From a virus: 24,126 bases of DNA. The notes under the pieces are model-generated. The model was not told where the DNA came from. It saw only the letters and a list, made by a program, of their open reading frames with translations, and ran no database searches. Positions 2,673 to 24,126 of the stretch are shown here, one piece after another; the first letter of the stretch is position 1, and each line of letters opens with the position of its first letter. The stretch spans positions 1 to 24,126 of IMG/VR virus record IMGVR_UViG_3300044614_001346, one strand, 5' to 3'. The translations under genes were made by a program, and so were the position numbers.

Positions 2673-5600
2673 TTATTGTTGTAATGCAATAATTAATGGA
2701 GTAACTTCTGCCTGAAGGCTCTTGCTAAATGCTTGACCACTAATAGTTCCAGTATTTTGATTAATCGTAATACCTTCACTGATTCTAAAATCACCACTTT
2801 GATCAGTGCTTGTGAATGGAACTTTTCCTCCATTAGTAGCAACTACCTGATTTTCATCAATTGGAACTGCTCCTTTTGATGGAATAGCATTTACAATATT
2901 TATACCAGTACCGATGTATTCAAATGTGATGCTACTTGCAATGATTTTACTTGATTGATAGAAGTACACTGTATCACCAACTCCGACAAGTGGAGAGTAT
3001 GTAATAAATTCATCAAAGGTAACTGTGGTAGTTCCTCCAACAGAAACAGGAGTTGACGATACTGGATTGAAGAAATATTTTTCCATTACAGCAACTGCTT
3101 CTGCTTGAGTTCCTCCTTCCCCAGGAGGGTCAATTGTTACTGTTGGAGGAGTTTCTAAATAACCAGTTCCAGAAACCAAGATTTCTACATTTGCGATAGT
3201 CCCGTCTTCATTAATATTATTTTCAAATATTGCTGCTTCTGCTGGAATGAATAGATCGGAATTTTCGGGAAGAGCTACAGTAACATTAACTGGAATTGTT
3301 GGGTCATATCCAGATCCTGGATTAGTAACTTCAATTCTAGATACAAAATAATATTGAGTATCAATAACTGCAATCTGTCCGTCATATGGTCTTTGTCCCT
3401 TTGGAAGTATTTGTGCTGGAACAGCAGTTGTTCCAATTCCAATAATACTAGTGATGATTCCAGCACGAGATTGAATGAAGGAATCTATTTGCGCTGATGT
3501 TGTAATTCCAGTTAATTTAACTTGAGGGAAAGAACCAACACCAGTCTGATAAGATGTTGGAACATCTTCGTTTCTTACGATGTAATATGATAAGTCAACA
3601 ATTTTTTCAATAGCAGAAATTTCTGCCTCCTTAACATAACCAGCAGATAGCCCTGTTGGAGGAGGGGAAGTTTCATTTAAATATGTTAATGATCCATCCT
3701 CCGAATCACGATATGCTAATCCAGCATCTATTGAGTTTAAATTGCCCAATGTTAAAATATCAGAGCATATCTGTTCTACTATAATCTTACTATCTCTTCT
3801 ACAGATTTCTCTTCCCTTCTCGGGTCCTATTGGACCATAATCAAATACTGTTCCAGCAGCACCAAATGGACCATCTGATGAAATAATAAATCCAACAACT
3901 TCAGAAGCAATAAAATCTTTATTTGCTCTTAAAATTGTAACTGAATCTTTAAATTCTTGAGATGCACCAACTCCAACATTAATAACTAAACTATCGACGT
4001 TATCCCCTTCCGGATCAGAAACAATTTCTCCAGTATATTGAAGTGGAGTTGCTCCATTAGATACTAACCCAAAGTTACCAAATGAGGAGTTGGAGTTGTT
4101 GAGGTCACATACTCCACCAGTATCACAGAAAACTGCAGTATCACAGCAAATTGTAAATAGTGAAACTAACTGGGCATATCCAAAGTTTGTAATTGATACT
4201 CCGATACCACCTTGATTATATTGCGTATAAGCATCCAGAACCATTGACTTGAATCCACCTGCCCTGGTTCCATCAATTCTCATTCCAATGCTATCTGGAA
4301 CAAAGTTAGTGCAGTTTTGGACGTAAGGTGACTGCCAATTTTCCTCAGTTCCATCAGCATATCCATACCCTCTCGTTGGGAAGGACACCATTGCTTTTCC
4401 TGGATTGCTTGGTCCAACAAAAGATAGTTGAGCAACGTAACAACCTCTCTTCACATAGAATAAATCAGTCAAATCTCTAGTTGTAACAAGAGTTCTTCTT
4501 AAATCTTCTCCAACTACGGCAACTCTTTCATTGAGTGAAATAGGACCATCTTCAATATAAAGACCTGCAAATACTTTAATTGTATCTCCTGGTTGTGCTA
4601 TAGATGCTGCTTTCTTAATAGTAAGGAAAGCATCTCCTGGACCAGTTCCTCCATTTCCATCATCTCCTAATTTATTAACAAACCATTCATTTCCAATTCT
4701 TGGTCCTGGTGGTTGCCATACCAATTCCCCAGAAGGATAGTTGGTAGTAATTCCTGACGCAGTATATCCAACTCCAATAATTGTGGTAACAATACCAACA
4801 GCACTATGAATTGCTGACAATACATTTGCACAACCAAGAATGTTTGTATTTGAATCTCCGTCTGCAACAATTTCTAGGTCAATTAATTGTGATACACTTG
4901 AGATGCCAGATTGATATGATACTGGAGGTCTGGAATTATTAATTACGTATTGTGCTAAAGTTGCAATTGAACTGATTCCAGCAAGAGTTGCATACTTTAC
5001 GTATCCACCTGGATAAGATTCCAGACCAGTTGGTGCTGGAGAACTACTTTCCAGATAATTGCCCAAAGAGTATGAAATGCCTGCACCAACAGACTTTGAG
5101 TTTCCTCCTTTGGTGATATCAAATGCGATAGCATCAATAATTAGTCCAATATCTCTCTTACACTTTTCTCTACCCGTTGTAACTCCAACTGGACCATAAT
5201 CAAAATTGGGACCATATGCTCCAAATAAACCATCAGTGGAGGTGATAAAACCAACAATTTCTTCAGCAATAAACTCCTTATTGCGAATTAAAAGATTTGC
5301 TCCATCAATAAATCTGCCAGTAATTCCAATAGCACCAGCAGAAGCAAGTACTGAATAAGCAAATCCAACTTGATTATTTGAATCAATAACTTCACCACGA
5401 ACTCTTAAATCACCAGCAACATCAAGAGTTCTTGTTGGTTCTGTGGTATTGATACCTACTATAGGATTAATTTCCTTAATTTCATTTCCATCTAAATCAG
5501 TAACTGTGGTGATACCGAATCCACGAACCTTAACTAATGTTGCTCCAATTCCAACATCTAGTTTTGCGGTTGTTGTAATTCCAGTTACTAAAAGATTTTC

Positions 5601-7070
5601 TATTTCAGAATCTAATACATTCTCTCTTGTAATTGAGGCAATTCCAATGGTGGAGAACCCTACTACTTCATTAGTAATTGAGGCAACACCTATAGTAGAA
5701 AATCCTACTACTTCACGGGTAATACTAGCAACCCCAATTGTGGAGAACCCTACTACTTCACTGGTAATTGATGCGACACCTATAGTGGAGAATCCTACTA
5801 CTTCATTAGTAATTGAGGCAACCCCAATGGTGGAGAACCCTACTACTTCATTAGTAATTGAGGCAACCCCAATGGTGGAGAACCCTACTACTTCGTTAGT
5901 GATACTAGCAACACCTATAGTAGAAAATCCTACGACTTCGTTAGTGATACTAGCAACTCCAATAGTGGAGAAACCTACTACCTCTGAAGTAATAGATGCT
6001 ACTCCAATGGTGGAGAAACCTACAACTTCATTAGTAATTGAGGCAATACCAATGGTGGAGAAACCTACTACCTCCGAAGTAATAGATGCTACTCCAATAG
6101 TAGAGAACCCTACTACTTCACTGGTAATTGATGCGACACCTATAGTGGAGAATCCTACTACTTCACTGGTAATGCTAGCAACACCAATAGTGGAAAATCC
6201 TACTACTTCCGAAGTAATACTAGCAACACCAATAGTAGAAAATCCTACGACTTCTGTTGTGATTGATGCGACACCAATAGTAGAGAACCCTACAACTTCT
6301 GTTGTGATTGATGCAACACCAATAGTGGAAAATCCTACTACTTCACTGGTAATAGACGCTACTCCAATCGTGGAGAACCCTACGACTTCACTGGTAATAC
6401 TAGCAACACCTATAGTAGAAAATCCTACTACTTCTGATCCAATGGTTGCTACTCCAATTGTAGATACACCAACATACTCTGTTGTAATAGTAGCAAATCC
6501 AGATACTCTTATATTTTCAGCAATATCTAAATTATATTCTGGATTGAGTTCATTAATACCAATAAATCCAGAGGAATTAATTACAATATCATATCCACCA
6601 CCTTCTGGTTGATATCTTAAATCATATTCACCAGGATCAGTAAATCGAATACCAATTTTTCCCCCAGTAGTAATCGCAACCGGGTTTGAATCTGATGGAT
6701 TGACTTGGAATGCTTGTTCTGGATCTATAGTCCCTATACCAAATGAACCCAATCCAGTTATAACAACTGGATTTTGATCTGATGGATTTACCTGGAATAT
6801 TTGTTCTGGATTAGTTGTTCCAATACCGATGGTATATGCTATACCAACTCCCCTAACATCAAGTCTCTGATATGGAATTGTAGTTCCAATACCAACATTA
6901 TTATCAACTAAAATATTGGCATCACCATAGATTGTGCCATATACGTCTAAAGTATAGTCACCAGAAGTTGCTCCAATTGCAACTTGCTTAAATTCAGCAT
7001 CTGCATATAAAGTATTTGTCCCTACCCCTAGACCTGTTTTTACCTTAAAAAAAGTATCTTGTGATGCCAT
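2673..7070 (-). CDS. Giant mosaic tail fibre / appendage protein with 15-residue repeats (1465 aa)
   Basis: Modules seen in order are as follows. Residues 1-190 hold several GIGTTxPxxxxxV units typical of phage fibres. Residues 198-482 are nineteen 15-residue repeats (EVVGFSTIGVASITS type). Residues about 593-765 form a domain with FDYGPVG and GREKCKRD. Residues about 790-1010 resemble a parallel beta-helix (IKKAASIAQPGDTIKVFAG, then NNSNSSFGNFGL). Residues about 1046-1215 are a second copy of the 593-765 domain. Residues about 1245-1310 contain NPGSGY and SGTGY modules. The tail region has DFRISEGITINQNTGTISG, a cyanophage fibre signature I recognise. A late promoter core and the shared 20-base leader precede the ATG. 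The protein is presumably a trimeric fibre or baseplate appendage; the enzymatic or binding role of the beta-helix is unknown. Confidence 0.88.
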   Translation of the reverse strand: MASQDTFFKVKTGLGVGTNTLYADAEFKQVAIGATSGDYTLDVYGTIYGDANILVDNNVGIGTTIPYQRLDVRGVGIAYTIGIGTTNPEQIFQVNPSDQNPVVITGLGSFGIGTIDPEQAFQVNPSDSNPVAITTGGKIGIRFTDPGEYDLRYQPEGGGYDIVINSSGFIGINELNPEYNLDIAENIRVSGFATITTEYVGVSTIGVATIGSEVVGFSTIGVASITSEVVGFSTIGVASITSEVVGFSTIGVASITTEVVGFSTIGVASITTEVVGFSTIGVASITSEVVGFSTIGVASITSEVVGFSTIGVASITSEVVGFSTIGVASITSEVVGFSTIGIASITNEVVGFSTIGVASITSEVVGFSTIGVASITNEVVGFSTIGVASITNEVVGFSTIGVASITNEVVGFSTIGVASITNEVVGFSTIGVASITSEVVGFSTIGVASITREVVGFSTIGVASITNEVVGFSTIGIASITRENVLDSEIENLLVTGITTTAKLDVGIGATLVKVRGFGITTVTDLDGNEIKEINPIVGINTTEPTRTLDVAGDLRVRGEVIDSNNQVGFAYSVLASAGAIGITGRFIDGANLLIRNKEFIAEEIVGFITSTDGLFGAYGPNFDYGPVGVTTGREKCKRDIGLIIDAIAFDITKGGNSKSVGAGISYSLGNYLESSSPAPTGLESYPGGYVKYATLAGISSIATLAQYVINNSRPPVSYQSGISSVSQLIDLEIVADGDSNTNILGCANVLSAIHSAVGIVTTIIGVGYTASGITTNYPSGELVWQPPGPRIGNEWFVNKLGDDGNGGTGPGDAFLTIKKAASIAQPGDTIKVFAGLYIEDGPISLNERVAVVGEDLRRTLVTTRDLTDLFYVKRGCYVAQLSFVGPSNPGKAMVSFPTRGYGYADGTEENWQSPYVQNCTNFVPDSIGMRIDGTRAGGFKSMVLDAYTQYNQGGIGVSITNFGYAQLVSLFTICCDTAVFCDTGGVCDLNNSNSSFGNFGLVSNGATPLQYTGEIVSDPEGDNVDSLVINVGVGASQEFKDSVTILRANKDFIASEVVGFIISSDGPFGAAGTVFDYGPIGPEKGREICRRDSKIIVEQICSDILTLGNLNSIDAGLAYRDSEDGSLTYLNETSPPPTGLSAGYVKEAEISAIEKIVDLSYYIVRNEDVPTSYQTGVGSFPQVKLTGITTSAQIDSFIQSRAGIITSIIGIGTTAVPAQILPKGQRPYDGQIAVIDTQYYFVSRIEVTNPGSGYDPTIPVNVTVALPENSDLFIPAEAAIFENNINEDGTIANVEILVSGTGYLETPPTVTIDPPGEGGTQAEAVAVMEKYFFNPVSSTPVSVGGTTTVTFDEFITYSPLVGVGDTVYFYQSSKIIASSITFEYIGTGINIVNAIPSKGAVPIDENQVVATNGGKVPFTSTDQSGDFRISEGITINQNTGTISGQAFSKSLQAEVTPLIIALQQ
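5625..6479 (-). repeat. 19 tandem 45-bp units encoding 15-residue repeats
   Basis: Eighteen near-identical units EVVGFSTIGVASIT(S/N/T/R) plus one degenerate first unit (EYVGVSTIGVATIGS) occupy residues 198-482. The protein units differ almost only at the last position. The DNA units differ at many synonymous sites, for example in the codons for Gly, Phe, Ser and Val. This points to strong selection on the peptide rather than a fresh slippage product. Confidence 0.95.
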
Positions 7071-18057: not shown

Positions 18058-20112
18058 TTATCCTAGTTCAGAAAGTGCTTGGCGTTTTAATGATGCTAAT
18101 GTATTTAACGAGGTATCTCCACCAATTGTGATAAATTGAGTTGATAATTGAGATTGTGGTTGGGGAGATCTCACTGGTTGAGGGACATATACCATAGCAA
18201 TCGTAGAAGATTGGTCATTGTAAGATGGATACATTTCAATATTCCTATCTTTAGGGGAAAAGGATACAAGTTCTCCTTCTTTTTTCACATAATCCCAATT
18301 ACGTTTATCAACTTCCAAAAATTTTCCATCATTACCTTTCGTTGTTGAATAATATTTACCATCATTTCCTTTGAATAATGTTGTTCCCCTTAAAGTATAT
18401 TTACTTCCAGGTACAGGTTGAACTGAATTTGAAGGTGTAGTTGGTGGTGAAGGTTGTGAGGTCGATTTTTTCTTGTGCTCCTCTTCGGCACGTTGTCTGG
18501 TTAAAGGTGATGGTATTTTTTGAGATGCTGATATGTCAGTATTGGGATTTATATGTCTGCCATTTTTCCAAACCTCAAAGTGTAAATGAGTATCATACAT
18601 CCTTCCAGAAACTTCTTCTCTTCCTGGCAGCAATTTCCCAATTTGCTGCCCCCCATATACAGTATCTCCACTACTAACTGTAGCAATAACGTGCTTATAT
18701 TTTGTATAAACACCGTTCCCGTGATCTATAGTAATAATATTATCTGGACCTTCTAGTCCTGGTTCCACTGTAACAGTTCCAGTTTTCCAAGCAACAACTG
18801 GACTATTACCAGGAAGTCCACCTATGTCTTGTCCGCTATGTCCTCCCTCATAATTTCTATCAGCACCATACTCACCACGAGGAACACCTACTGCTGCAGT
18901 AGATAAAATCCCACCAGGAAGAGGGAAAAATGAATCCTTATCTATTGGTCCAGTATATGGATTTGCTGATGGTGGAGGTGGATTTGGTGGTCCTCCTTCA
19001 GTCATATCCAGAATTTCCTCTGGTGGTTTAAAATTCTTGGAAAATTCTTCAAATTTATTCACAACTCGTTCATAACCAACTAAAGTTTTTGAGAACGAAA
19101 GACCCACTCCACCTTCATCCTTTCTTTTAACTAGATCCTTTTGCTTTTTAGTTTGCTCTTCTAACTTTGTTTGTATTCCTTTCTTTTTCTTTGCTTCATT
19201 CTCACTCATTCCTGTAATGTCACGAGCAAAATTAACAAGGTCTAAAGTTACTGAAGCAAGTCCTAGGAAAGGAGTTGCAACTAATCCAATTCCAGTTGCT
19301 GCAGATGCAGCCGCAGCAGCATCTAAAGCAGCAGATGCTCCAGCAATTCTTGATCCAGTAATGTCACCTTCATTTGCTCTCATCTTGGCATCAACCGCAC
19401 CAAGAACTGCACCAACACCAGGTATAATAGATTTTCCTAATCTGCCAAATGCTTTTGCTACCTTTCCTCCTCCACTAGCAGTTGCAGTAGAACTTGCTGC
19501 TTGCTGAGATTTTTTGAGAGCATCTGCTCCAAATCTATTTTTAAATGCCTTATCACCATAACGACTTAAGTATCTTTCTTGTGCGCCTTGACTTACTCTT
19601 CTTCCAGTAACATCAAATCCTCTCCTCAATTTATTTCTACCCAGAATTTTATCCATTCCTGCACTGACCCCAGCACCTATCAAACTTGGTCCTGCTACCA
19701 TTCCAGCAGCAACTAATCCAGGACCAAGTGCTCCTAACAAATCTCCCGAAGCAATTTTCTCAAGACTATTAAATGCTGCAAGTGCTCCAATTGCCTTGAA
19801 TGGATCTTTAGAAGCATCAGGTGCGAAAAATGATCCAGCAAATTTCTTAATTGTTGGAAGTTTTATTTTCTTTTTAGATGCCCTTCTTGCCCTTTCTTCT
19901 TCTGCTCTTTCAATTGAATCTAATTGTCTTTTATATCTTTTTAATACTGGTAATTGAGTTCTCTTTTGATAACTATTTCTTTCAAATAATCTTCTTAATC
20001 TTCTGGAAGTCGTGTTTAAATCATCAACAGACTTCTGAAGATTTTCTATGTTAGAAACTCTTGTAACAATCTTTGGTTGTTTAGGTTTTGCCTTTACTAC
20101 AGTTTCTTCCAT
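18058..20112 (-). CDS. Tail/hub scaffold protein with M23 peptidoglycan endopeptidase domain (684 aa)
   Basis: Residues 1-90 are basic and helical (coiled coil). Residues about 92-155 hold a hydrophobic segment (FF...ALAAFNSLE...LLGALGPGL) that matches the neighbouring 703-residue protein. Residues 225-300 are Ala/Gly-rich and hydrophobic, followed by a charged helix (300-360) and a Pro-rich linker. Residues about 405-525 form an M23 lysostaphin-type domain with complete zinc and catalytic motifs: HSGQD (His425, Asp429) and HLHFE (His509, His511). M23 enzymes cut peptide crosslinks in peptidoglycan. The 160-residue C-terminal region is unassigned. It probably acts as a tail-borne enzyme that opens the cell wall during infection; a tape-measure-like location is inferred. 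Confidence 0.85.
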   Translation of the reverse strand: MEETVVKAKPKQPKIVTRVSNIENLQKSVDDLNTTSRRLRRLFERNSYQKRTQLPVLKRYKRQLDSIERAEEERARRASKKKIKLPTIKKFAGSFFAPDASKDPFKAIGALAAFNSLEKIASGDLLGALGPGLVAAGMVAGPSLIGAGVSAGMDKILGRNKLRRGFDVTGRRVSQGAQERYLSRYGDKAFKNRFGADALKKSQQAASSTATASGGGKVAKAFGRLGKSIIPGVGAVLGAVDAKMRANEGDITGSRIAGASAALDAAAAASAATGIGLVATPFLGLASVTLDLVNFARDITGMSENEAKKKKGIQTKLEEQTKKQKDLVKRKDEGGVGLSFSKTLVGYERVVNKFEEFSKNFKPPEEILDMTEGGPPNPPPPSANPYTGPIDKDSFFPLPGGILSTAAVGVPRGEYGADRNYEGGHSGQDIGGLPGNSPVVAWKTGTVTVEPGLEGPDNIITIDHGNGVYTKYKHVIATVSSGDTVYGGQQIGKLLPGREEVSGRMYDTHLHFEVWKNGRHINPNTDISASQKIPSPLTRQRAEEEHKKKSTSQPSPPTTPSNSVQPVPGSKYTLRGTTLFKGNDGKYYSTTKGNDGKFLEVDKRNWDYVKKEGELVSFSPKDRNIEMYPSYNDQSSTIAMVYVPQPVRSPQPQSQLSTQFITIGGDTSLNTLASLKRQALSELG
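18538..18900 (-). other. M23 endopeptidase domain
   Basis: Residues about 405-525 of the 684-residue protein. The four M23 metal and catalytic residues are present (His425, Asp429, His509, His511), and a TKYKHV segment (His474) stands where families often have YxHL. The domain is predicted to be active. Confidence 0.85.
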
Positions 20113-20113
20113 A

Positions 20114-22225
20114 TTATGCTAGTTGGCAATAAGTTTTTGCGGAATCACTATATACACAATCATAACCAGTGGAAACTGGATTAATAGGATTTCCTCCGTT
20201 GTCACCCATAGACATTGGAGTTTTTTCCGAATTTTGCGGGGGCAATCCTAATGCTATTAAATTTGGAGTTGATTGTGGAACTTTTGCAACTGATTCACTT
20301 AATCTTTTTATATTTGATTGAGGTCCATTTGGATCAACGGGATTAGGTGCTGGTGCTACTGGTGATTGTTGTGCTGGTGTTGATGGAGGAGAATTTTTCG
20401 GTTCTACAACTTCAATAGTAGCATTTTTTAGAACTCCAGTTCCAATACCACCAAGAGCTCTCATAGCACCTTCACTCAAATCTAAAGATCTGTCCCCGAC
20501 AAAAGGTCCTCTATCGGTAACTCTAACAACAACAGATTTATTATTATCTTTGTTTGTTACCTTTAATAATGTTCCGAATGGCAAAGTTTTATGTGCTGCT
20601 GTCAGCTCATTGGGGTCAAAAGTAGTTCCACTTGCCGTTTTATTTCCTTCAAATCCTGGACCATAATAACTAATTCCTCCAGCAACATCTACGGTTTGTC
20701 CTGTGATATTTACATCTTGAGGGACATCAGTTGACAATTGATCTACAGATGGTGGAGTTCCTGAAGGTGTCGGTGGAGTGGGACTGCCACCAGAACCTCT
20801 AGTTCTGCTACGTGGAACCTCTTTTTGTTTCTTCAATAAAAAGTCAAGTGCGTTTTCAAATTTTTGATTCAATGATTCAAATCTCTTCAAAGCACTATCT
20901 GGTATGGCACCTAATGCTTGAGGTTGGGTTGATTCTTTCTGTTGAGTTTCGAGTTCATCTAATCTTGTTTGAATGGCAGAATCTGGTGCAGAAGTATCTT
21001 GTTCCCCTCCATTCTTTCCCAGCATTCCACTTCCAAGTGCCAATGCTCCAGCACCTAATGCTGCGATTGCTCCAAACTTACCTAACCTAGGCATTCCTGC
21101 AGCAGCAGTCCCAACTCCTCTTGCTGCAGTTACTCCACCTCTTGCGGCAGAACCTCCTCTAGCAGCACCAAGTAGTCCTCCCAGGACTTTCTTCCCTATC
21201 ATTCCTGCTATCAATCCGCCAATAGCAGGAAGATAAGTAGCACCAATTCCTAATAATGGACCAAGAGCATCCAACGGTCTCCCGTTCATAAATGCTTCTA
21301 GCATATTGAAGAGTGCTAGAGCACGAATTGCTCCACCAGCACCACTAAAGAAGTTTCCAACATACTTCTTAACTAAACCAGAAACATCTACTTTGCTGCT
21401 TCCGAGTTCAGTCTTCCCAATCTTTCTTCCACGATTGGCAACTCTCTTTCTATATTCATCAACTTCTTTTTTATTTTCTACCTTTGTATTTGCAATATCT
21501 TCTGCAATCTTGGCAAGAGTAGCATTCAGATTATCATTAGTCTGCTCAATTGATAATGCTAATCTTCCAAGAGCAGATACAATTCTCTTTGAACCACCAA
21601 TTCCTTCTTCAGTTTCTTGTGCTTCTAACTGTGGTTTTGAAATTTTATCTACGATTTCTTGAGGAGCTGCTCTCTTTGGAATAATTCCAGGCAACTTCGT
21701 GACTTTTAATTTTGCCTTTGTTCCTGGTCTAAAACTAGTAGCACCAGAAACAAATGATTTTGCCTTTTGCTTCTTCTCTTCAGATTGCTCTAATGTTTTC
21801 TTCTCTTTATCCTGCTGCTGTTGAAGTAACTTAAGTCTTACATCTTCTTCATCATTAATTCTCTTAATAGTAATTTCAGCAAGATCATAGAAACGAATAA
21901 GGTAATCGCAAGCCTCAACGAGGTTTCTGTTTAATTCTGGTTCTTTATGAAATATACCCTTACCTTCTGCTTCTTTATAGTTAGAAAGTGAATATCCGAA
22001 AAATCTTAAATGTTGTATTGCAGTATCATAATCCTTATTTGTTGCATATAAATATCCAACCTGCATCAAGAATTCAGTATCTCTATCCAAAAACCTATCT
22101 AAATTCTCATAAGTAGTTCCCCTATTCTTTGGAGGTGGGGACAAATGGAATCCAGGAGGAACTAATTTATAGAGTTCCTCCTGGATTCTTTGTTTCTTAA
22201 TTTTAATTAGATCTTGCGTATCCAT
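20114..22225 (-). CDS. Tape-measure-like tail protein with RlpA-like (DPBB) domain (703 aa)
   Basis: Residues 1-160 are helical with a TPR-like stretch (YLYATNKDYDTAIQHLRFFG) and a Lys/Glu/Gln coiled coil. Residues 286-400 are strongly hydrophobic (NFFSGAGGAIRALALFNMLE, then Gly/Ala-rich), as in many tape measure proteins. Residues about 515-607 match RlpA-type double-psi beta-barrels: YYGPGFEGNKTASG, LTAAHKTLPFGT, VRVTDRGPFVGDRSLDLS. RlpA proteins are septal lytic transglycosylases that act on stem-peptide-free glycan. Residues 610-703 are a Pro/Ser-rich tail. The position right after the gp26-like and 60-residue genes is where tape measure genes usually lie. No other tape measure (gp29) candidate is visible here. 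The start abuts the previous stop (TAAATG). Confidence 0.82.
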   Translation of the reverse strand: MDTQDLIKIKKQRIQEELYKLVPPGFHLSPPPKNRGTTYENLDRFLDRDTEFLMQVGYLYATNKDYDTAIQHLRFFGYSLSNYKEAEGKGIFHKEPELNRNLVEACDYLIRFYDLAEITIKRINDEEDVRLKLLQQQQDKEKKTLEQSEEKKQKAKSFVSGATSFRPGTKAKLKVTKLPGIIPKRAAPQEIVDKISKPQLEAQETEEGIGGSKRIVSALGRLALSIEQTNDNLNATLAKIAEDIANTKVENKKEVDEYRKRVANRGRKIGKTELGSSKVDVSGLVKKYVGNFFSGAGGAIRALALFNMLEAFMNGRPLDALGPLLGIGATYLPAIGGLIAGMIGKKVLGGLLGAARGGSAARGGVTAARGVGTAAAGMPRLGKFGAIAALGAGALALGSGMLGKNGGEQDTSAPDSAIQTRLDELETQQKESTQPQALGAIPDSALKRFESLNQKFENALDFLLKKQKEVPRSRTRGSGGSPTPPTPSGTPPSVDQLSTDVPQDVNITGQTVDVAGGISYYGPGFEGNKTASGTTFDPNELTAAHKTLPFGTLLKVTNKDNNKSVVVRVTDRGPFVGDRSLDLSEGAMRALGGIGTGVLKNATIEVVEPKNSPPSTPAQQSPVAPAPNPVDPNGPQSNIKRLSESVAKVPQSTPNLIALGLPPQNSEKTPMSMGDNGGNPINPVSTGYDCVYSDSAKTYCQLA
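20405..20683 (-). other. RlpA-like double-psi beta-barrel domain
   Basis: Residues about 515-607 of the 703-residue protein. His545 and Asp571 of the conserved AAH and TDRGPF motifs are present. The TASGE motif of many RlpA proteins reads TASGT here, so the conserved acidic position is Thr534. Confidence 0.85.
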
Positions 22226-22408
22226 TTAGAGACTCTGTTTTTTTGATGCCTTTTCTTCTTCTTCCTGAATATGTTGCTCCAATAGAGTTAAATAGATTTC
22301 CCTTTCCCAAGGTATCATATTTTCAATCTCTGTTAATGAATATTTATGATACTGCATCAGGGCAAAATTAATTCTAAAATAAGATTCCAAGTCTTCGTGA
22401 CTCATCAT
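22226..22408 (-). CDS. Small tail assembly protein overlapping the gp26-like gene (60 aa)
   Basis: This acidic helical protein (MMSHEDLESYFRINFALMQYH) contains IENMIPWEREIYLTLLEQHIQEEEE. Short helical segments of this style follow tail assembly chaperones in many phages, and T4-like annotations often call the ORF in this place a gp51-type hub assembly catalyst. I do not assign that name firmly. Its start overlaps the stop of the gp26-like gene (TAATG), and its stop abuts the ATG of the 703-residue protein. Its frame is -1 relative to the upstream gene. The last codons of that gene contain T TTT TTC, so it may also be made as a C-terminal extension of the gp26-like protein. Confidence 0.8.
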   Translation of the reverse strand: MMSHEDLESYFRINFALMQYHKYSLTEIENMIPWEREIYLTLLEQHIQEEEEKASKKQSL

Positions 22409-23139
22409 TATCCGAAAAAACTTGATAACCCTTCTAAAACTATTTCATTTTCAACTTTTGTTTTTGGATTAACGACAGTTAATGTATGAGATAATTTAGG
22501 CATTGTGTCGAAGAACTGCTCAATTCCTTTGAATTGATTTGAATCCATAGTTTCTAGCCAAGAAATCAATTCTTTCTTACTGACATCTCCTGCAGACCAA
22601 GATTCATCTTTAGTATAAACCATATCAACACAAGAAGCAACAACCTCAAATGATTTGTCAATTACTTCTTTACTATTATTTTGAGCACCAAAATCAAAGT
22701 TGTTATCAATAAATTCTTGAAGTGATGGATACTTCATCTTCACTGTAATATTATCATCAACTTTAACTTCAGAAGTATGTCCCTCTGGAATTAGAACTTT
22801 AATTTCGTCAATATTTACACTGACATCAACTTGAGTTTGATTGTCATCGGGACAAGTAATAGTCAGTTCAACAGATTCTCCCACAGACTTTGCACGAATA
22901 TTCAAGAACAAATATTCAATATCAAAACTAGGAAGAGTTTCAATTTTTACTCCACGAGTTAGGATGCAATCTTTTAAAGTAGTTTTGACTGCATTTGTAA
23001 TCTCATCTTGATTTCCACTTTCCATTGCAAGAATAAGAATTTTCTCTTCTTTAACTAGGAATGGACGATACTTAATTGGTTTTTTAGTAGATGGTAAAAT
23101 CAACTCATAACTAGGAGTTGCAATCTTTGGTAAAGGCAT
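22408..23139 (-). CDS. 26: gp26-like baseplate hub protein / tail assembly chaperone (243 aa)
   Basis: The opening MPLPKIATPSYELILPSTKKPIKYRPFLVKEEKIL in part and the pattern LESGNQ...LKDCIL...LPSFDIEYLFLNIRAKSVGE match the T4 gp26-type baseplate family (T4_baseplate). The C-terminal half is helical (SKKELISWLETMDSNQFKGIEQFF in part) and ends SSFFG. In T4 this protein is required for hub assembly. Members resemble the tail assembly chaperones that precede tape measure genes in other phages (my inference). A 29-base gap separates it from the tail-tube-fold gene, with no strong Shine-Dalgarno sequence. The 3' end carries a T TTT TTC heptamer directly before TAATG. The family call is confident; the chaperone role is not. 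Confidence 0.85.
   Translation of the reverse strand: MPLPKIATPSYELILPSTKKPIKYRPFLVKEEKILILAMESGNQDEITNAVKTTLKDCILTRGVKIETLPSFDIEYLFLNIRAKSVGESVELTITCPDDNQTQVDVSVNIDEIKVLIPEGHTSEVKVDDNITVKMKYPSLQEFIDNNFDFGAQNNSKEVIDKSFEVVASCVDMVYTKDESWSAGDVSKKELISWLETMDSNQFKGIEQFFDTMPKLSHTLTVVNPKTKVENEIVLEGLSSFFG
22414..22420 (-). promoter_or_regulatory. Candidate -1 ribosomal frameshift site (T TTT TTC)
   Basis: The gp26-like frame reads AGT TTT TTC GGA TAA, so the heptamer fits the X XXY YYZ rule exactly in phase, six bases before the TAA. A -1 slip would read CGG ATA ATG ATG and continue into the 60-residue ORF without a stop. I see no strong downstream hairpin or pseudoknot, and function is inferred. Confidence 0.45.
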
Positions 23140-23168: not shown

Positions 23169-23789
23169 TTAGATTCCTTTGTTAAACGATGTCTTATTCT
23201 TCTTAACTTCAAAATCATAGTAATCATAATTAAACGTTATAGTTGTTCTCAATACATCGGATTGACCATATGATACAGGAACCGAAATAATATTAGAGGG
23301 AAACGCATTTCTTAAATTATATCTTGCTTGATGTGATGGCTCAGAAACTGTTCCTGCAGTTCCTGGTGAATTTAATCTATCTTTACTTTCTCTAAATTCT
23401 CTTTCGAATTTTGTAATAATTACATCAGTTTCATAACCTCCAGATGGATAGCTAAATCTAAAATTATCAGACTTATCATTAATTTGCTTAAACCACCTTT
23501 CAAAAAAATCTAAGACATCATATTTAGTGTCAACATAAAAACTTACATCTACAGGAGGATAAACTCTCTTAGTTGGATACTGTTCTGTTACTCCTTGCCT
23601 ATCACCAAACACTTGTCCTAGTTCAAAAGATGAACCTGGAAGGACAGCTTCATATGCTGAAAAATTTACAACCTCATCATCAATTCCAGAAAATGACTTA
23701 CTAATAAACACATCAAATGTTGAGGTAAGTGACGGTTTAAATTTCCTTACTAACTCATCAGTACTATAGAAAAGTCTTCTTGATGGCAT
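23169..23789 (-). CDS. Tail-tube-fold protein, gp19/gp48/gp54 type (206 aa)
   Basis: The protein has the layout of contractile-tail tube proteins. It has an N-terminal strand set (TFDVFISKSFSG), a central PPVDVSFYVDTKYDVLDFFERWF helix region (in part) where tube subunits contact each other, and a C-terminal YNLRNAFPSNIISVPVSYG followed by TTITFNYDYYDF. The last block (Y.L.naFP...v.lsY...tvtFnY) is the hallmark of the family. Being next to the hub genes rather than the sheath and portal genes, it is more likely the baseplate tube initiator or cap (gp54 or gp48 role) than the main tube gp19, but I cannot settle this. The ATG at 23789 lies 31 bases from the divergent gp4-like gene. Confidence 0.72.
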   Translation of the reverse strand: MPSRRLFYSTDELVRKFKPSLTSTFDVFISKSFSGIDDEVVNFSAYEAVLPGSSFELGQVFGDRQGVTEQYPTKRVYPPVDVSFYVDTKYDVLDFFERWFKQINDKSDNFRFSYPSGGYETDVIITKFEREFRESKDRLNSPGTAGTVSEPSHQARYNLRNAFPSNIISVPVSYGQSDVLRTTITFNYDYYDFEVKKNKTSFNKGI

Positions 23790-23820: not shown

Positions 23821-24126
23821 ATGTCCTATAAGGGAATATTCAAACCATCATTCCCAGAAAAGTACATTGGTGACTATAAAAATATAATTTATAGATCATT
23901 ATGGGAACTTAAATTTATGAACTACTGTGATAAAAATGAAAATATTCTAAAGTGGTCCTCTGAAGAAATACATATTCCATATATTTCTCCTATTGATAAC
24001 AGAATTCATAGATACTATCCAGACTTTTTTATAAAGTATAAAGATGCTGATGGATGTATCAAAGAAAGTTTAATTGAAATCAAACCCAAAAGACAAGTTA
24101 AAGAACCAAAGGTTGGTAAAAAAATC
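23821..24126 (+). CDS. 4: gp4-like head completion protein, PD-(D/E)xK fold (partial, first 102 aa)
   Basis: An open frame from ATG at 23821 runs off the right edge after 102 codons. It begins MSYKGIFKPSFPEKY. It then has RSLWELKFMNYCDKNENI, WSSEEIHIPYISPIDNRIHR, YYPDFFIKY and SLIEIKPKRQ. This is the pattern of T4 gp4 (head completion), whose family has a PD-(D/E)xK nuclease-type core: Glu in WELKF, Asp in YPDF, and Glu-x-Lys in IEIKPK are all present. In T4 gp4 acts with gp2 and gp50 to finish filled heads before tail joining; its biochemical activity is less certain. An ATG four bases upstream (23817) leads to a stop after four codons, so 23821 is the start. Confidence 0.88.
   Translation, partial: MSYKGIFKPSFPEKYIGDYKNIIYRSLWELKFMNYCDKNENILKWSSEEIHIPYISPIDNRIHRYYPDFFIKYKDADGCIKESLIEIKPKRQVKEPKVGKKI

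Follow-up and report, generated by a model that had tools for sequence, protein, structure and literature searches.

A conserved slippery heptamer points to a probable frameshifted tail assembly chaperone gene at the gp26-gp51 junction of T4-like phages

We examined a 24,126-base stretch of viral DNA (IMG/VR record IMGVR_UViG_3300044614_001346, positions 1 to 24,126; hereafter the window) that carries T4-like tail genes on its minus strand, among them a gp26-like open reading frame (ORF) followed directly by a 60-codon gp51-like ORF. The comparative sequence evidence makes it very probable that these two ORFs are a single recoded tail assembly chaperone (TAC) gene, in which a programmed -1 frameshift yields a short and a long isoform. 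The initial annotation of the window had proposed such a frameshift, as in lambda G/GT, and the proposal gains support from a slippery heptamer and an open -1 frame that are both conserved across relatives. The features of the junction are as follows.

22408..23139, minus strand: gp26-like ORF, 243 codons plus TAA; predicted short isoform (TAC-N, lambda gpG-like)
22414..22420, minus strand: slippery heptamer T TTT TTC in X XXY YYZ phase, followed by one sense codon (GGA) and then the stop
22408..22410, minus strand: 0-frame stop TAA, overlapping the ATG of the second ORF as TAATG
22226..22408, minus strand: 60-codon ORF with its own ATG and stop; gp51-like C-terminal domain
22229..22414, minus strand: fusion tail in the -1 frame, 62 codons (RIMMSHEDLESYF...); part of the predicted long isoform (TAC-NC, lambda gpGT-like)
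22429..22434, minus strand: GAAGGG, Shine-Dalgarno (SD)-like, 8 nt upstream of the heptamer; candidate upstream stimulator
22388..22404, minus strand: weak hairpin of four Watson-Crick pairs and two G-U pairs, 9 nt past the heptamer; candidate downstream stimulator

The gp26-like ORF matches the Pfam family PF12322 (T4_baseplate, E=7.7e-74) and the PHROG family phrog_150 ("baseplate hub", E=4.7e-79, 267 bits). Its final codons are TTA GAA GGG TTA TCA AGT TTT TTC GGA TAA, so the frame end and the heptamer phase are as first described. The -1 frame, also as described, is open into the 60-residue ORF, with no stop from 34 nt ahead of the gp26 stop through the end of that ORF. A second ATG stands immediately behind the TAATG. 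The 60-codon ORF is itself assigned to phrog_634 (gp51, "baseplate hub assembly catalyst"; E=4.2e-28), with a further match to the C-terminal end of phrog_150 (E=6.6e-8). The product of a tandem slip would be 242 + 62 = 304 residues long, which corrects the 303-residue type of fusion given initially.

To place the junction among its relatives, 208 sequences were gathered, 202 of which yielded a gp26 ORF; the other six are the window's own stretch in the other orientation (L082) and five loci that are cut off (L095, L097, L128, L145 and L185). Eight sequences with a separate gp51 gene (L090, L092-L094, L096, L204, L205 and L207) were set apart, leaving 194 frameshift-type sequences, which include the window and some duplicates that clustering removes. 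The relatives sampled were the best 80 of at least 600 loci and the best 80 of at least 591, and the counts are of these samples. An in-phase T TTT TTN (T6N) heptamer lies no more than one codon from the stop in 174 of the 194, one codon ahead of it in 172 and abutting it in two (Melnitz-3 and C48C1). The ORF end reads NNT TTT TTC NNN stop in all 82 members of the set made up of the window, its best 80 IMG/VR relatives and S-SSM7. After clustering, T6N is present in 109 + 2 of 117 clusters at 90% protein identity and in 26 + 2 of 30 at 60%. Among the gp26 representatives, 111/117 carry it within the last three codons, against 0/486 other ORF ends (at least 100 codons, both strands, same loci), a comparison for which a Fisher p is only indicative since the representatives are related. 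In all 192 sequences whose -1 frame is not cut by a contig end, that frame runs for 49 or more codons without a stop; the remaining two (L067 and L120) run off the contig.

Conservation at the junction is concentrated on the bases that a slip would use. Ahead of the two Phe codons, the 109 representatives in which a single codon separates TTT TTN from the stop have AGT (52), GAT (24), AAT (16), TCT (14), GCT (2) or ACT (1), and the third base is T in 109/109. The slip codons themselves are TTT TTC in 100, TTT TTA in six, TTT TTT in two and TTT TTG in one. Away from the junction, Phe-Phe in the same genes (n=110) is written TTC TTT (59), TTT TTT (39), TTC TTC (7) or TTT TTC (5), and an in-phase T6N occurs 14 times in 26,500 other codons. 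On a tree of the 109, built without the last 12 codons and from rows chosen for carrying T6N, a minimum of 22 changes is counted for the first two bases of the preceding codon, of 29 for the 0-frame residue that follows the heptamer and of 27 for the stop codon. These comparisons are strong comparative evidence that the frameshift junction has been precisely retained across a large family.

The -1 frame also bears marks of coding across the junction. The residue after Phe-Phe in that frame, upstream of any ATG, is Arg in 101/109 representatives, while the 0-frame residue overlying it varies (G 64, A 23, V 12, E 3, others); where the heptamer ends in A, the following bases yield AGA or AGG in four of six cases. 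The second residue after Phe-Phe is Ile, Leu or Val, a pattern nearly forced by the 0-frame stop codon and not used as evidence. Start codons are less constant. An ATG lies inside the first nine -1-frame codons from the heptamer in 56/109 representatives, the window included, and only at codons 9-14 in 17/109. No ATG is found in the first 15 codons in 36/109 (six of which have only GTG or TTG, and 30 none of the three), so the usual start is missing in a third. The class of ATG (early, late or none) has changed at least 11 times on the tree, which gives little sign of strong constraint.

Homology to the T-even proteins gives the two predicted products an identity. The fusion matches phrog_150 over residues 1-292 with 312 bits (gp26 alone, 267), and this family takes in the window's gp26, T4-type gp26 and T4-type gp51. 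With hhalign, a profile of the fusion aligned to four T4-type gp51 proteins at E=5e-23 (a single comparison) over columns 16-293 of 306, gap-free at the junction, where the fusion segment is FFRIMMSHEDLESYFRINFALMQYHKYSLTEIENMIP. Against four T4-type gp26 proteins the same profile gave E=1.3e-20, the alignment reaching the same end as the short form. Because the fusion matches T4-type gp51 and the short form T4-type gp26, the gp26 and "gp51" annotated here would correspond to the short and long isoforms of one gene. RB51 has gene 25 after gene 26 and carries gene 51 (250 codons) on the opposite strand; Phi1 and Aeromonas phage 31 have a similar arrangement, and in KP27 gp51 and gp26 adjoin on the same strand. 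A scan with an Aeromonas-phage gp51 as query found a single locus. T-even gp26 retains Phe-Phe at the matching place. The codons are TTT TTT in L096 and TTC TTT in the other five loci (L090, L092-L094 and L097), and a stop in the -1 frame comes after Phe-Phe and ahead of the gp26 stop. On these six loci, which are few and closely related, the heptamer is gone where a frameshift would not be needed.

Structure comparisons bear on the chaperone reading of gp26 in its first third. Searching solved structures by sequence gave a best E of 0.27, and a second search was without match. An AlphaFold model of the window gp26 with 51 relatives had a mean pLDDT (predicted local distance difference test) of 84.9. 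Among 999 Foldseek-ranked PDB chains, a list that barely probed gp26 beyond residues 1-86, the HK97 tail assembly chaperone 2ob9 came first for residues 1-86 (Z 7.9, root mean square deviation 4.0 over 84 residues, where a Z under 8 can be chance), followed by 3fgx (Z 7.8) and YqbN, 3klu (Z 7.3). Foldseek itself scored 2ob9 at E = 1.0 and placed proteasome chains above it. Several of the best-named matches to the model in a viral structure library were gp26-type hub proteins. The modelled N-terminal third of gp26 thus agrees with a chaperone fold.

Two kinds of element may stimulate the slip. Upstream, a dnaX-type stimulator would be an SD-like element some 10 nt ahead of the heptamer. Pairing with the anti-SD sequence peaks for 8-nt stretches that start 15-16 nt ahead of the heptamer (mean about -7 kcal/mol). 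The pairing of the SD-like stretch is stronger than a synonymous null (observed -7.17 vs -5.44), with 76/109 representatives stronger than their reshuffle mean, and the Glu codon within it is GAG in 65/97, compared with 31% across the genes. An apparent covariation of GAA and GGG in the element (Fisher p = 0.003) was dropped as evidence when its significance was lost on the tree.

Downstream, the stretch from +5 to +45 after the heptamer has a mean z of -2.56 (70% below -1.5; n = 109) and the stretch from +5 to +65 a mean z of -2.02 (58% below -1.5; n = 108), against means of -0.07, -0.03 and 0.31 for three control stretches. Pairing was counted on two alignments: A3, which holds 62 of the 77 representatives that are not P-HM1-like (the 15 left out are distant), and A5, the 49 rows of A3 other than the window and its 12 relatives of at least 74% identity. 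An 11-bp stem (stem A; A5 columns 13-23 with 33-43) is paired in 83.5% of cells among these 49 relatives outside the window clade, compared with 26-47% when slid, although the structure counted was picked from single-sequence folds, which favours it. Its covariation score on the 49 rows is 0.173, against 0.032-0.098 for slid versions, and was reached by 0/500 shuffles; on all 62 A3 rows the corresponding values are 74.5% vs 27-49% paired and 0.155 vs 0.043-0.120. Stem A begins 5-6 nt past the heptamer. Stem-loops that start 5-6 nt after the heptamer are typical of ribosomal frameshift sites. The stem-loops differ by lineage: GTATGGCTCA/TGAGTCATAC; GCCCTC/GAGGGC, which in many P-HM1-like phages stands in place of stem A; GGCTCTCA/TGAGAGCC, the stem of L191 and L195; CTAAGTC/GACTTAG; or none. 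On a P-HM1-like alignment (A4, 25 of 31 rows), RNAalifold returned three pairs only, with no two-sided changes. The hairpin type of the window is longer in three of its relatives (L004, L006 and L009). Among nine distant T6N-type loci, folding falls below z -1.5 in two for +2..+47 and in seven for +2..+67. Most representatives thus appear to have a stable fold just downstream of the site, with compensatory changes in the largest group; the fold appears weak in the window.

From these observations we propose a mechanism. Most ribosomes would stop at the TAA and release the 243-residue short form. In a minority, both tRNAs would slip by -1 on T TTT TTC, and the product would be the 304-residue long form, the last 62 residues of which would be the gp51 C-terminal domain. 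Slippage is probably aided by the upstream SD-like purine stretch and, in most relatives, also by a downstream stem-loop. By analogy with lambda, the partner proteins would be a tape-measure-type protein, coated by the short form, and a tube-type subunit, recruited by the tail of the long form. The sequences show the architecture of the junction, its conservation and the homology of the fusion to T4-type gp51; the slip, its rate, its stimulators and the partner proteins are inferred.

Several observations weigh against this account or against parts of it. A conserved Glu-Gly accounts for part of the SD-like element, whose GAA/GGG covariation loses significance once relatedness is corrected for on the tree; because Glu-Gly itself gives an SD-like stretch and the covariation fails, the element is only suggestive as an upstream stimulator, and amino-acid constraint and relatedness may account for it. 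Two-sided changes in stem A amount to 18 cells, within the range of 6 to 23 for slid versions (two of them at 20 and 23), and neither A3 nor A5 gave a consensus structure in RNAalifold. In the window itself the stretch past the heptamer is no stabler than shuffles (z = +0.68); the hairpin of its clade is paired in 84.6% of cells, a value matched by 88/500 shuffles, with no covariation beyond shuffles. Most of the distant T6N-type loci (7/9) are without structure close to the site. The site is not universal either: in place of the heptamer stand A/G ATT TTC, in 19 Ackermannviridae-type loci, and G CTT TTT, in Vibrio K474, neither of them canonical. In the window, the early ATG means that some free gp51 domain could be made. 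Finally, a passage in a review cites genetic evidence that places T4 gp26 in the hub, unlike a pure chaperone.

These exceptions have features of their own. In all 19 Ackermannviridae-type loci (L088 and L098-L115) the gp26 end is GAR ATT TTC ATT/ATC TAA, and the -1 frame opens into a gp51-like domain, in several loci only from 10 nt ahead of the stop. Given so short an opening, these loci probably shift at A/G ATT TTC, non-canonical as this site is. No downstream structure was found in the five Ackermannviridae-type loci tested. In Vibrio phage K474 (L089), gp26 ends ACG CTT TTT GCG TAATG, leaving the site half slippery and the -1 architecture in place.

The alternative that survives best would combine two processes, with the frameshift making the fusion and translational coupling adding a free gp51 domain wherever an early ATG is kept. 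Just over half of the representatives, the window among them, have such an ATG (56/109, as above), and we regard this combination as rather improbable, well below the frameshift itself; the repeated changes of ATG class on the tree do not have the look of strong constraint. Slippage of RNA polymerase on the T run, joining the frames through a mixed pool of mRNAs, is a very unlikely source of the fusion. In its favour, 174/194 sequences have six or more T in a row, and transcriptional slippage is known for longer runs. Against it, the window has only T6 and the Ackermannviridae-type sites four T, and the position of stem A 5-6 nt past the heptamer fits a ribosomal site.

Translational coupling alone, with terminating ribosomes starting the 60-codon ORF as a separate gene at its own ATG and no fusion being made, had been put forward initially as the simpler explanation. 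The TAATG of the window, the second ATG right behind it, the early ATG in 56/109 representatives and the annotation of a separate second ORF in 11 of 14 frameshift-type records all suit it. It cannot serve as a general explanation, since the first 15 codons are free of ATG in 36/109 representatives, and in another 17/109 an ATG comes only at codons 9-14. It also leaves unexplained the in-phase heptamer, the conserved Arg ahead of the ATG, the structures past the heptamer and T4-type gp51 as a natural in-frame counterpart of the fusion, and we consider it highly improbable. We give almost no credence to the idea that the heptamer is kept only for the protein's need of Phe-Phe near its end, for which the Phe-Phe of T-even gp26, where a shift would miss the gp51 domain, might be cited: the T-even loci use TTC TTT (5/6) or TTT TTT (1/6) there, with a -1 stop before the gp26 stop, TTT TTC accounts for 5/110 Phe-Phe pairs elsewhere in the genes and 100/109 at the junction, and the residue ahead of Phe-Phe varies while the third base of its codon is always T.

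A frameshift at this junction would turn two "baseplate hub" genes of T4-like phages, cyanophages included, into one recoded chaperone gene. Of the 14 frameshift-type records examined, none annotates the fusion, and the second ORF is unannotated in the three that do not list it separately, Vi01 (L088), S13 (L200) and P-RSM1 (L206). We see it as an evenly balanced question whether, more broadly, T4-like phages other than the T-evens carry at their gp26-gp51 junction an ancient recoding cassette with a near-invariant heptamer and stimulators that turn over, non-canonical sites in the Ackermannviridae- and K474-type loci being part of it. T-even gene 51 would then be the long form made a separate gene after duplication, and T4 gp51 and the short cyanophage gp51 would be one thing. 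The junctions offer a natural series with a constant heptamer in varying surroundings, useful for measuring what sets frameshift rates.

Two genes flank the junction.

20114..22225, minus strand: next gene, 703 aa, with a DPBB/RlpA-like domain (PF03330, E=8.1e-21)
23169..23789, minus strand: preceding gene, 206 aa, tail-tube-like (PF23849 Phage_TTP_2, E=2e-12; phrog_45 tail tube, E=1.8e-33)

The 206-aa tube-like gene occupies the position of lambda V, and the 703-aa protein that of the lambda tape measure. The description of the latter as tape-measure-like fits the hydrophobic stretch in its translation, and homology to tape measures is not supported: its best E against tape-measure PHROGs was 0.047, and BLASTP to a Cr30 gene annotated as tape measure gave no support. 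The proteins encoded at 20114-22225 and 18058-20112, both on the minus strand, have a hydrophobic module in common (41% over 73 residues, E=1e-6) and differ in their wall-degrading-type domains, DPBB/RlpA-like in the first and peptidase M23 in the second. Elsewhere in the window, 3-2243 on the minus strand encodes a long collagen-like repeat protein (GIQGIQGTQG...) of at least 747 residues that is cut by the window end, and 2673-7070 on the same strand encodes a 1465-residue protein with many near-identical copies of VVGFSTIGVASITSE. The divergent gene at 23821-24126 on the plus strand encodes a TnsA-like protein of the head-closure family (PF08722, E=2e-13; phrog_218, E=1.2e-40).

Parts of this picture have precedents. 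Vladimirov, Gautam and Davidson (Virology 2022;566:9-15) are said, in papers that cite their work, to have dealt with the tail assembly chaperones of T4-like phages. One such passage, in the PRFect paper (PMC10885494), has some T4-like phages with one short and one long chaperone gene and no frameshifting; another, in the Adele paper (PMC12846349), has poly-T slippery sequences as known in the TAC-N genes of T4-like phages. As cited there, that work contradicts the initial statement that such a frameshift is not described for the T4 gp26 family. We take its short and long genes to be gp26 and gp51. The chaperone role of gp26 and gp51 and the poly-T slippery sites of T4-like relatives thus appear, from these passages, to be already in print, and a -1 frameshift for a tail assembly chaperone is known in kind and probably in the T4-like family too. 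The downstream structures, the SD-like element and the losses of start codons come from the present analysis and may or may not have been published. No paper on the gp26-gp51 junction in cyanophages was found among the titles and abstract openings searched, a coverage that leaves out subscription journals.

According to a passage in Sullivan et al. 2010 (PMC3037559), cyanophages and marine vibriophages have a short gp51 that matches at the C-terminus but misses the first ~200 residues. The word "frameshift" has 0 occurrences in the main text of that paper. T4 gp51 was labelled a protein of unknown function in 2010. The recoding would account for the truncated look of cyanophage gp51, since the ~200 residues it misses would be those that gp26 contributes to the fusion.

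The HK97 tail assembly chaperone may resemble gp26, 2ob9 being the best structural match to model residues 1-86, at the Foldseek E of 1.0. Lambda slips at a different site, and at a different distance from the stop, than the T TTT TTN junction, which leaves 0 or 1 codon to the stop, and the two systems are likened by their architecture. In a description of lambda G/GT and related -1 frameshifted tail chaperones (PMC5009743), the likeness is that of a tube-type gene ahead of the chaperone gene. Lambda makes G and GT by -1 frameshifting; T-even phages have two separate genes for the short and long forms, whereas a single frameshifted gene would supply both here.
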